Of a stretch of 64,000 nucleotides of DNA, positions 1,357-4,688 are shown one piece after another. This DNA is from Candidatus Poribacteria bacterium. GTDB lineage: Bacteria; Poribacteria; WGA-4E; WGA-3G. Position numbers and translations under genes: made by a program. Location of the stretch: NCBI GenBank assembly GCA_022825825.1, contig JAJDWA010000070.1, positions 1-64,000 of the forward strand, written 5' to 3'. The notes under the pieces are model-generated. The model was not told the DNA's origin, did not search any database, and saw only the letters and a list, made by a program, of their open reading frames with translations. Position 1 is the stretch's first letter; every line of letters starts with the position of its first letter.

Positions 1357-1475
1357 TAAAATACTAAAAATTGTCCAAACTTTTGTGCATTTATAAAAAA
1401 AGTCATTTTATGCAACCTTTTTATTTTTGGTACGCGTTATTAACTTACAAAGACATTTTTATTTTGAGGAGACAC

Positions 1476-4400
1476 ATGAAAATCAACGACTTTGTACTAA
1501 TCCAGCGCACCTTAGATGGTGACCAGAAAGCGTTTACCGAACTCGTAAACAGGTATCAAAAATGGGTACATTCCCTTGTATGGCGAAAGATTGGTGATTT
1601 TCACACTGCAGAAGAGATTACACAGGATATCTTCCTAAAAGTTTACAAAAAGTTATCAACCCTAAAACCTCCAATGCATTTTCCGGGATGGTTATACGTC
1701 ATAACATCGAGGCACTGTATTGCGTGGCAGCGAAAAAAACAGCAACCAACTAAATCTCTGGAGGCTATGCCTACAACAGAACTTGAGGAATTGTGCTATA
1801 CGCGTTATGAGGTAGAGCGCGAAAATATATTATCAATTGAGCACCAGCGTGAAATTGTCAGACGTCTTCTTCAGAAACTCCCAGAGAGCGAGCGTACCGT
1901 CGTAACGCTGCACTATTTGGCAGAAATGTCTTGCGAAGAAATTAGTCAATTCTTGGGAGTTTCGCAGAACACCGTTAAAAGTCGGCTCCACCGTGCCCGC
2001 AAGCGATTGGAGAAACAGGCACACCTACTCCACGATGCATCAGGTGCCTTCCAATTACCGCCAACCCTAACTGAAAACATCATGCGTGAAATTGGGCACA
2101 TCAAACCGACATCCACTACCGTAAGCAAGCCTTGGATGCCGTGGGGACTCTCGTTTGCATCGGTCCTTTTGGTTCTGCTAATGGTAGGTATGGGACCTCG
2201 TGCGTTATCGCGTTTCCAGAAGCCCTACAGTTTGGCAGCGGCATCAGAGATGAAAATAGAATTGGTTGACACACCTATTGTCCTTGAATTAGAACGCAAA
2301 TCCAACGCGCTGACTCAAATTGGAAGAATCGACGCACTTGGAAAAAATAGAGAAACCGGATCCCAAGCGGAATCACTATTTTTTGCAGCTGCACAAGCAG
2401 AAGAGACCGACCTTCCTGCAGCAAAACCTGAATGGCTTCAGACAAAAGGACCGGGAGGTATTGGGGGTTCAGGCGCAAAACTCTTTCTTACGTCCGACCA
2501 ATCCCTTTATGCGATTACAAGAACAGCGCTTTATAAACTCACAGAGAAAGCAGACATGTGGACACTTGTCAGTTCCAGTGCTCCGAATCAGATATTTGAT
2601 GGAGTGATGACGGAACGCGACGACACCCTTTACCTCCTTACTTCCAATGAAATCTTAGCCTCAATTGATGAGGGTAAGACATGGGATAACCTCGGCAGAC
2701 GCCCAGAAGGTCATGCCGTTGCATTGGTTGCCACGGATACGGCGATATACCTCGTCCTCAAAACAGATGTCTTTCGTCTTCGTTTTGAGGATATCGGTCA
2801 TGCGTGGGAACTTATAGGAGATACCTTGCGTGCCTTACAAGACGACGTCCCGGAGGCGGTCAATCCCAAAACCCGTCCTAATCGTGATGCTGCAGACAAT
2901 CCCAATTTTCGGCCCGGTCTCGCCGCTTGGGATGCATTTGCCCTCAACAACCCTGTTTTCCGCATTTGGGACGCACTCGCAATTGACAACACCCTGTTTA
3001 TTGGAACAAGCCAAGGGCTTTTCCGATTTACCGATGATTGGGAGAAATTAGAAGTGCCAACATCACACGGTATCAAATCTTTGGCAGCCGCAGAAGATAG
3101 ACTTTATGCAGGCACAATCGTTGGACCTCCGATCCCTATGGTCGGGCAGGGGACTATTCCGATCCCTATGGTCGGGCAGGGACCTATGGGGATAGGAACC
3201 CCTCGCGGAGGAGTATTCTCTTCCACTGACCTTGGCGATACCTGGACCGATATTACACCGAAAACCCACATACATTCAATGGGCACTGTTGAGGTTGTTA
3301 CAGTCAGAGACACACTGATATTGTTTGGTTATGGTTTACGCTCTCAAGATGGTGGCAAAACATGGACAGTTCCTGAAGGGGACCTTAGGATGATTAGCAT
3401 GTCTCCTACTATCGCGTTAGACGAAAACAACATATATAATATCAGCAACGGCGGAATAAGACGTACAATAGACGGCGGTGTCACGTGGCATCCATTTATG
3501 ACCGGAATAGTAAATTCTCACGTTCGAAATCTGATTATGAACAAAAACGTTCTCTTCGCGCAAACACCTACAGAACTGCTCAAATCCGTAGATGGCGGGG
3601 AGTCCTGGGAATCTGTTGACTTAATAAGTACTGACGAAAAATCACTACCTTTTCTTAGAAAAACGCGAATGAAAGTTGCAGCAGCCAATGGTATTCTATA
3701 TGCAAGCAATAGTCAACCTGATGGTGTCACGCTCTTTCGTATTTCTGATGGCGGTGATGTGTTCCTATCCGTTGAAGGTGTGCCGGATTTTGCAGTAGAC
3801 ACCTTAGAAACGGAATTGGATAAAAAGTTAAAGATCGAATCTGTTAAAGCAGCAGAACAGTTTCAGGCAGAATGGGAGAAAAAGCGTGAGGAGCTAATAA
3901 AAAACAATCCTAATGTTGACATTGACAAAGCGATGAAACAGTTTCATGCGGAACAGATAGAAACGCGTAAGAAAGCATCGGGGATTGTTATTCAGACGAT
4001 AGGGAACAATCATGATCTTGAGAAGGCAATGGAGCAGCGGTTTGCTATTGCCGCACAAGACAAGATCGCTGCAGAACAGAGGACAAATGGAACATTTACA
4101 GTCGCTGACGATACCGTCTTCATGGTATTCAGGCATAAACTGTTCAGATGGCGGTTCGGTGAAACGGCGTGGCACGACACAGGTTTGAGTTTGGAAGATC
4201 AAGACGAAATCTCACCCATCGGTGAAGAAAGGTTCACGCTTGCTGCTTCTGGGAACACTGTCTATGTCGGTAAACCGGGGGGAGAGCTTTTCTTGTCTGA
4301 AGACATCGGTGACACGTGGCGTGATGTCACTGCAGACCTGCCATTTCCTGGATTTTTTAAGGAGATACTGTTCGCGGGTTCAACTGTCTATATTTTAACG

Positions 4401-4688
4401 GATATAGGTGTCATAAGTTCACGCGATGGCGAAACATGGCAAACATGGCACGACCTCACCGATGTTGATGGGAATGTAATTTTCATAGACAGGATCGCAG
4501 GCGATGGCAAAACTGTTTACGGTGTATGTGATAGCGGTATCTATCAAGCAGATAAGCAGGCAAACACATGGAAACAGGTTATCCCAGAATTGCCACACAG
4601 GGCAACCTCCTTAGCCGTTGATGGCAATACATTTTACATCGGCACACGGCAAAACGGAGTGTACCGCTTCCAGCGTCCTGATCAATAG
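1476..4688 (+). CDS. ECF sigma factor fused to membrane helix and Asp-box beta-propeller
   Basis: The 1070-residue protein joins three parts. Residues 1-180 are an ECF-type sigma-70 factor: region 2 around FHTAEEITQDIFLKVY and region 4 around LPESERTVV...EISQFLGVSQNTVKSRLHRAR. At about 220-240 there is one hydrophobic helix (WGLSFASVLLVLLMVGMG). From about 320 to the end the chain holds at least seven Asp-box/BNR motifs of the S-x-D-x-G-x-T-W kind (for example SIDEGKTW, SSTDLGDTW, RSQDGGKTW, KSVDGGESW, LSEDIGDTW), as in sialidase-like or photosystem II stability-factor propellers. A charged helical insertion lies near 780-870. I chose the ATG at 1476 because GAGGAGA precedes it; an upstream TTG at 1371 lacks a site. 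I infer a membrane-tethered sigma factor with an outside sensor propeller. No separate anti-sigma gene lies nearby. Confidence 0.8.
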   Translation: MKINDFVLIQRTLDGDQKAFTELVNRYQKWVHSLVWRKIGDFHTAEEITQDIFLKVYKKLSTLKPPMHFPGWLYVITSRHCIAWQRKKQQPTKSLEAMPTTELEELCYTRYEVERENILSIEHQREIVRRLLQKLPESERTVVTLHYLAEMSCEEISQFLGVSQNTVKSRLHRARKRLEKQAHLLHDASGAFQLPPTLTENIMREIGHIKPTSTTVSKPWMPWGLSFASVLLVLLMVGMGPRALSRFQKPYSLAAASEMKIELVDTPIVLELERKSNALTQIGRIDALGKNRETGSQAESLFFAAAQAEETDLPAAKPEWLQTKGPGGIGGSGAKLFLTSDQSLYAITRTALYKLTEKADMWTLVSSSAPNQIFDGVMTERDDTLYLLTSNEILASIDEGKTWDNLGRRPEGHAVALVATDTAIYLVLKTDVFRLRFEDIGHAWELIGDTLRALQDDVPEAVNPKTRPNRDAADNPNFRPGLAAWDAFALNNPVFRIWDALAIDNTLFIGTSQGLFRFTDDWEKLEVPTSHGIKSLAAAEDRLYAGTIVGPPIPMVGQGTIPIPMVGQGPMGIGTPRGGVFSSTDLGDTWTDITPKTHIHSMGTVEVVTVRDTLILFGYGLRSQDGGKTWTVPEGDLRMISMSPTIALDENNIYNISNGGIRRTIDGGVTWHPFMTGIVNSHVRNLIMNKNVLFAQTPTELLKSVDGGESWESVDLISTDEKSLPFLRKTRMKVAAANGILYASNSQPDGVTLFRISDGGDVFLSVEGVPDFAVDTLETELDKKLKIESVKAAEQFQAEWEKKREELIKNNPNVDIDKAMKQFHAEQIETRKKASGIVIQTIGNNHDLEKAMEQRFAIAAQDKIAAEQRTNGTFTVADDTVFMVFRHKLFRWRFGETAWHDTGLSLEDQDEISPIGEERFTLAASGNTVYVGKPGGELFLSEDIGDTWRDVTADLPFPGFFKEILFAGSTVYILTDIGVISSRDGETWQTWHDLTDVDGNVIFIDRIAGDGKTVYGVCDSGIYQADKQANTWKQVIPELPHRATSLAVDGNTFYIGTRQNGVYRFQRPDQ
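3129..3181 (+). repeat. 30-bp in-frame tandem repeat inside the propeller
   Basis: The unit beginning ccgatccctatggtcgggca at 3129 is repeated from 3159 with a 30-base period, encoding PIPMVGQG twice and a third degenerate Pro/Gly-rich stretch after it. The repeat keeps the frame and falls in what is probably a loop between propeller strands. The DNA copies are identical over 23 bases, so the duplication is recent or conserved by conversion. Confidence 0.8.

Follow-up and report, generated by a model that had tools for sequence, protein, structure and literature searches.

Predicted membrane-anchored ECF sigma factors with fused outside sensors form a multi-copy family with readable promoters in Poribacteria

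Introduction

Can a bacterial sigma factor and the sensor controlling it be parts of one polypeptide chain? This question is raised by a gene in positions 1476..4688 of a 64,000-nucleotide DNA stretch from Candidatus Poribacteria bacterium (assembly GCA_022825825.1, contig JAJDWA010000070.1, positions 1 to 64,000), below called the window. The gene encodes a sigma factor of the extracytoplasmic function (ECF) type, followed in the same chain by one membrane helix and a tandem beta-propeller, probably located outside the membrane. Poribacteria are known mainly as symbionts of sponges (PMC3909097; here and below, statements on published systems rely on excerpts of the cited papers). Our search for publications on ECF sigma factors in Poribacteria found none, most subscription papers being beyond its reach, so that absence from print is not established; the word "sigma" does not occur in the main text of the single-cell paper on this phylum (PMC3909097).

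Results and discussion

Domain structure of the window protein

The initial annotation described one open frame with ECF regions 2 and 4, a single membrane helix near residues 220-240 and a propeller, and this description has been confirmed: the frame is single and intact (1070 amino acids plus stop; the gene, its parts and its promoter are on the + strand). Sigma region 2 (1542..1742, residues 23-89, Pfam PF04542) and region 4 (1851..2009, residues 126-178, Pfam PF08281, recognition helix N165 T166 K168 S169 H172) are both above the Pfam cut-offs, the NCBIfam sigma70-ECF model scores 103.9 bits against a cut-off of 42.9, and the family profile aligns with SigW over positions 8-181. Region 4 is followed by a conserved, presumably cytosolic juxtamembrane segment (2019..2135, residues 182-220), whose conserved residues 182-207 are predicted to be helical, then by the single transmembrane helix (2136..2192, residues 221-239, hydropathy 1.95 over 19 residues, conserved P222, W223 and G238) and by a conserved stalk (2193..2375, residues 240-300, FQKPYSLAAASEM..ELVDTPIV), which is predicted to be disordered and is a candidate protease target. 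The rest of the chain (2421..4685, residues 316-1070) is a probable outside tandem beta-propeller with Asp boxes, having at the fold level the tandem propeller structure of the GH74 type; structures ranking high in the propeller fold search were those of GH74 enzymes and of the outside portions of Bacteroides sensors. A long predicted helical insertion within the propeller (3807-4085, residues 778-870) exceeds the length seen in the paralogues.

Distribution and integrity of the fusion

A scan of named genomes matched 295 relatives, and the best 80 of these matches (77 loci) all belong to Candidatus or uncultured Poribacteria. The segment comprising the helix and the stalk is present in 68 of the 84 genomes of the phylum, with up to 71 copies per genome. 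It occurs in all 58 genomes of the taxonomic family of the window, in 2/2 and 7/9 genomes of two other families of the order and in 0/3 of a third one, in one of ten genomes elsewhere in the class, and in neither of two beyond the class. Genomes of the same family carry from 1 to 51 copies (at most 51 places being scored), and genome G020 has 71 in another count. In the 13 low-copy genomes the helix is found in 23 of 25 genes, and the FQxPY motif of the stalk is kept in 15 of 25.

Relatives aligning with the window gene end to end (13 genes in eight loci of seven genomes) are all single genes, and residues of regions 2 and 4 are conserved in relatives. As the queries, being either the fused segment or sigma-bearing genes, spanned the fusion, split versions would be under-found. 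With this restriction, the proposal that sensing and sigma function are joined in one chain with intact sigma motifs has held up, the same domain order recurring in other genomes, and neither of the cases named in advance as contradicting it, a fusion limited to this genome or orthologues in two separate genes, has been observed. A lone fusion or a frameshift artefact is ruled out by the phylum-wide copies and the end-to-end single-gene relatives.

Family members in the genome of the window

Searching the genome (5.14 Mb in 75 contigs) yielded 100 matching pieces; the regions were then fetched and their genes counted, giving 39 family genes, 32 of them with the membrane helix. Many genes are grouped with their own kind: the close groups contain 5, 4, 4 and 3 copies, and two further copies form a looser pair separated by 2.3 kb. 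Mean column identity is 59% (32 rows) for the segment that starts at the end of region 4 and includes the linker, helix and stalk, compared with 41% and 25% in two full-length sets. Thirty-two helix-bearing members contain outside parts of different types: Asp-box repeats in 17, WD40 repeats in 11 and others in four, including carboxypeptidase-regulatory and C-type lectin domains. Thus, the outside modules vary, while the sigma part, linker, helix and stalk stay conserved. The median dN/dS (ratio of nonsynonymous to synonymous substitution rates) of the sigma part is 0.089, that is, it evolves under purifying selection. One of the 32 helix-bearing copies (L033:7581-10085, contig C29) lacks the sigma part; the match there contains two stop codons, and so it is probably a decaying gene.

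The location of the propeller outside the membrane is probable, given the domain types of the family and a weak charge bias around the helix. That the propeller might be cytosolic, sensing an internal signal, is highly improbable: the sigma part has to be in the cytosol and is separated from the propeller by a single helix, a C-type lectin or carboxypeptidase-regulatory domain is present in other members, and folds ranking high belong to GH74 enzymes and to the outside portions of Bacteroides sensors. The points in its favor are that WD40 modules are often cytosolic and that one propeller-bearing member has no helix. In the latter (L022:8195-11005) the Asp-box propeller is retained, and the end of the linker, the helix and the stalk are missing in frame; since the helix is missing, this propeller would be cytosolic and the protein soluble.

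Promoters of the family genes

Target promoters, initially considered unknown, can now be predicted. A two-part motif is shared by the 200-nt upstream regions of 38 family genes of the same genome; it scores over 8 in 35 of them, with the -35 element AATTATGCA(A/C)CC and the -10 element GCGTCACTATA; the core spacing is 18 nt in 25 genes, 17 in nine, and 19 in one. The predicted ECF-type promoter of the window gene (1405..1444) has TGCAACC (1411-1417) as the -35 element and GCGTTA (CGTT in 1435-1438) as the -10 element, with the core spacing of 18 and 37 nt between CGTT and the ATG at 1476. Its score with the family position weight matrix (PWM), for which this gene is a training one, is 26.2. 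A DDE transposase gene is located just upstream (519-1346), and the space separating it from the sigma gene contains the family-type promoter.

A score of 14 or higher is reached by 80 of 88 genes in other genomes, compared with 2 of 880 dinucleotide shuffles; as these genomes are relatives, the comparison tests chance and not independent origin. Scanning 852 kb of the genome (with small overlaps) on both strands with the PWM identified 48 sites with scores of at least 18, versus one in the reversed sequence; 34 of them are at training genes and 14 elsewhere, two of the latter having no gene found downstream. Chance origin of the promoters is ruled out by these shuffle and reversed-sequence controls. 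The exact pattern ATGCAMC-N17/18-CGTC gives 30 matches in the whole genome versus 11 in the backward control, and hence is a weak finder by itself, the PWM being better.

Overall, TGCA(A/C)C-N17/18-CGTC or its variant precedes 185 of 212 family genes when the matrix is retrained on all these genes; with the matrix from the window's genome only, 180 of the 216 unique family genes having enough upstream DNA score at least 14. The -35 elements differ among paralogues, the main classes being TGCACC (54 genes), TGCAAC (43), TGAGAC (31) and AGCAAC (15), along with others. The marks expected of ECF factors, that is, an AAC-like -35 element, CGT in the -10 element and autoregulation, are thus all predicted computationally.

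Correlations between sigma residues and promoter bases

The correlation analysis shows that nucleotides of the -35 element covary with residues K168, S169, C153, H172, T166 and N165, and those of the -10 element with A83 and R86 in region 2. Among the 20 strongest pairs, 11 link region 4 with the -35 element and two link region 2 with the -10 element, none are crosswise, and seven involve columns of the linker, helix and stalk, which is taken as reflecting shared descent. To control for descent, we considered 89 disjoint pairs of sister genes, 26 with a change in the -35 element and 21 in the -10 element. The top six columns for the -35 changes are 165, 172, 169, 153, 166 and 168 (p from 2e-6 to 1e-4), whereas for the -10 changes column 83 is the first (p 9e-7), followed by linker column 97 (2e-5).

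Moreover, genes with six identical residues have the same exact 7-base -35 element in 85% of cases on average, the base rate being 14% (calculated for the 65 of 185 genes having such a match at background identity below 0.55). In particular, the helix NTRSR is associated with TGCACCA (32 of 33 genes), NTKSR with TGCACCC (17/19), GTKSQ with TGCAACC (13/13), and NTKSH, present in the window protein, with TGCAACC (9/9). According to the profile alignment, positions 166, 168, 169, 172 and 153 are equivalent to T168, K170, T171, H174 and L155 of SigW. The couplings of S169 with -34 and of H172 with -32 share the register of the DNA contacts in the SigW crystal structure, and K168 couples to -30, beside the contact at -31 (PMC6713349). 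Eight of the nine -35 classes with at least five genes contain both Asp-box and WD40 outside parts (a crude pattern count), and therefore the sensor and the output appear exchangeable.

Given the promoters and the covariation matching SigW contacts, the sigma parts seem to be functional and specific and to regulate their own genes, as far as can be judged from sequences. A degenerate sigma part no longer directing transcription, which the C29 copy could suggest, has a near-negligible probability and is rejected on the low dN/dS and on the covariation of DNA-contacting residues with promoters.

Predicted target sites beyond the sigma genes

Sites scoring at least 18 precede several further genes, which we consider as predicted targets: a MoxR/BatA operon (L175), an ABC-2 permease (L028), a gene for a 125-amino-acid protein followed by amidase_3 (L180), a probable ABC ATPase (L177) and a small ECF gene (L037), both named by eye, two exported-looking proteins with no Pfam match (L178, L179), and a WD40 gene (L031). 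On contig C71, such sites are found before glycosyltransferases and a cysteine-rich peptide. The sigma factor encoded there (L016:9913) has N83/Q86 and an unusual -10 element, TGTGTC, TGTC being common to the neighboring target sites. This part of the contig (~64-100 kb; L016 and L037) contains glycosyltransferases, short cysteine-rich peptides and family-type promoters with the family sigma gene in the middle, looking like a glycosylated ribosomal-peptide locus; it also has what we take to be a PqqD-like leader-binding look.

The sigma gene L021:8847, not used in deriving the code, has no promoter within 220 nt upstream. Of 20 genes with its recognition helix, STKSR, 18 have (A/G)GCAACC, and, in agreement with that, a GGCAACC site is found 1.9 kb upstream, ahead of two genes on the same strand.

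Proposed mechanism of signal transduction

The reading we favor, and hold to be reasonably probable, is that of a one-protein transmembrane regulator released by proteolysis to activate promoters of its own type. In such a chain, a short helical linker would connect a cytosolic ECF sigma factor with a single membrane helix, beyond which a flexible, conserved stalk would bear an exchangeable sensor on the outside; in the window protein this sensor would be the GH74-like tandem propeller, probably reading a glycan or a glycoprotein. The whole protein would be held inactive at the membrane; an outside signal would expose the stalk to a site-1 protease, then a site-2 protease (S2P) would cut within the membrane, and the freed sigma factor would lead RNA polymerase to TGCAACC-N17-CGTY promoters, among them the one in front of its own gene (positive feedback). 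Such release is made plausible by the analogy with IutY, which is freed by Prc and RseP, its periplasmic part being trimmed to ~50 residues to become the RseP substrate (PMC5411451); the conserved stalk is similar in size to that part. Genes of both protease kinds (site-1 and site-2) that release IutY exist in the genome, namely, those for S41 proteases and for S2P with PDZ domains. The search for an S2P gene, suggested by the initial annotation, was thus successful; as this gene is present in 14 of 14 control genomes, its presence says little.

A number of observations weigh against this reading. Besides the ubiquity of S2P, the positive-inside charge bias is weak (2.2 vs 1.7 lysines plus arginines), and the helix is absent in seven of 39 family genes, L022:8195 with its retained propeller among them. 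The count of 185 promoters comes from a matrix whose retraining included the same genes; the promoter is missing in 27 of the 212, of which 18 are among 22 genes from the 13 low-copy genomes, and none of 16 genes outside the taxonomic family has it, so that the promoter finding holds only for this family. All seven linker, helix and stalk pairs involve bases flanking the -35 core, four of the top 50 pairs are crosswise, and some region 2 columns also track the -35 changes in sister pairs (p ~1e-4). The region tests are modest at 80% clustering (p 0.018 for the recognition helix, 0.0048 for region 2.4) and weaker at stricter clustering (0.032 and 0.106; 0.045 and 0.060). Finally, in the window protein and 32 linker segments Pfam recognizes no anti-sigma domain that would silence the anchored sigma factor; specifically, no FecR-like anti-sigma domain was found among the 21 families listed for the window protein, and no zinc finger either in it or in the linker segments (Pfam, E-values up to 1).

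Two other modes of action were considered. The sigma factor might be active while anchored, the signal altering its conformation or oligomeric state and transcription starting at the membrane with no cleavage, as in ToxR/CadC-type regulators. In its favor, no anti-sigma domain was found by Pfam, and autoregulatory promoters do not require release; still, we consider it unlikely, as the strongly conserved, predicted-disordered stalk suits a protease target and the studied relative IutY is freed by RseP. Alternatively, an anti-sigma protein encoded elsewhere could hold the sigma factor, the helix and propeller serving only for positioning. ECF factors usually have an anti-sigma factor (PMC8999054), and its gene may be distant; on the other hand, no separate membrane anti-sigma gene adjoins the window gene, the immediate neighbors being the DDE transposase and an enolase-superfamily gene, and many family genes are grouped with their own kind, which makes this explanation very unlikely.

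Returning to release by proteolysis, silencing may involve the juxtamembrane helices. In a model of 285 residues, the sigma part is well predicted, these helices have pLDDT (predicted local distance difference test) of ~80, and the membrane helix and stalk of ~50 or below; the top structure in the fold search with this model is SigW bound to its anti-sigma factor (TM-score by target 0.66), ranking above polymerase-bound ECF factors, but, with a root-mean-square deviation of 8.4 and no control, no conclusion is based on this ranking. A bolder version, offered tentatively and with some doubt, would be that self-contained receptor arrays (up to 71 per genome) replace two-gene sigma/anti-sigma systems: no anti-sigma domain would exist, tethering and juxtamembrane helices would silence the sigma factor, the sensor would be freely exchanged on a fixed chassis of sigma, helix and stalk, and six residues would reveal the promoter of each copy.

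Comparison with known systems

Membrane ECF factors with fused regulators are already known (PMC8999054, PMC5826349), and the initial annotation was too strong in stating that in known ECF systems the membrane anti-sigma factor is a separate one, IutY and ECF48/52/53 being known fusions (PMC8999054). IutY of Pseudomonas putida (ECF243, a sigma/anti-sigma hybrid) likewise has a sigma factor, a membrane segment and an outside part in one chain (PMC5411451); the part of IutY lying outside is an anti-sigma domain that cooperates with an outer-membrane receptor, whereas the window family is multi-copy, with a large module outside and without a Pfam-recognized anti-sigma domain. SCO4117 of Streptomyces (ECF52), as well as ECF48 and ECF53, similarly combines a sigma factor, a helix and an outside carbohydrate-binding module, with proteolytic release proposed (PMC5826349, PMC8999054). 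ECF52 proteins, as described there, have a zinc-finger domain and are exclusive to Actinobacteria, unlike the window family, which has neither feature, and SCO4117 is the sole ECF52 member in S. coelicolor (PMC5826349). Some members of ECF57 also join an ECF sigma factor to WD40-like repeats; these repeats are described as protein-interaction modules, and two cysteines may link sigma2 and sigma4 (PMC8999054; compared by description).

The SigI/RsgI systems of cellulolytic clostridia resemble the window family in having many paralogues, polysaccharide sensing, paralogue-specific -35 elements and autoregulation (PMC6056542), and RsgI is cut by RseP (PMC12203970). They are encoded by two genes in 8-16 copies, while the window family has one gene in up to 71 copies. 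Propeller-rich outside or secreted parts are also present in the two-component sensors of Bacteroides (BT4663, BT4673) and in GH74 xyloglucanases, where a two-component regulator or an enzyme, rather than a sigma factor, serves as the output; the sensors give low TM-scores (0.17-0.21 by query). As far as our searches reach, the novelty lies in the scale of the family, its exchangeable sensors, its readable promoter code and the fact that no anti-sigma domain is recognized.

Other ECF-related loci

Two further types of ECF-related genes were observed in the genome. A frame of 1430 amino acids on contig C47 (L035:5064-9356, - strand) combines an ECF sigma factor, an FtsZ-like GTPase and the DNA polymerase III alpha subunit (PHP, polymerase, finger and HHH_6 domains). 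Six other genomes of the genus have open frames of 1359-1449 amino acids that match its first 600 residues throughout (65-85% identity), and a seventh has a 1450-amino-acid frame where the match is split into two pieces; the sigma-FtsZ part alone is found in seven other genomes (frames of 598-630 amino acids, two with a reported stop codon). The literature search on such sigma-FtsZ-polymerase fusions yielded nothing similar among the matches listed. The second type is a group of large ECF proteins with no membrane helix (L031:5329-7908, L034:7794-10502, L034:10870-13587); the two that were scanned have WD40 repeats, and the motif shared upstream is another one (AAACC-TTTCCC and CTCTATA-like).

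Biological significance

With up to 71 one-protein receptors per genome, most having a readable promoter, genes answering each outside sensor could be predicted from sequence, and the 185 sigma/promoter pairs form a natural collection for reading the recognition code. A minimal anchored sigma factor with no recognized anti-sigma domain is also a test of how little silencing needs. As most family proteins appear to recognize the promoter of their own gene, sensing and response may be wired into one molecule, and, if the bolder version given above is true, a sponge symbiont would have a large, decodable surface-sensing system for glycans of the host or of seawater.

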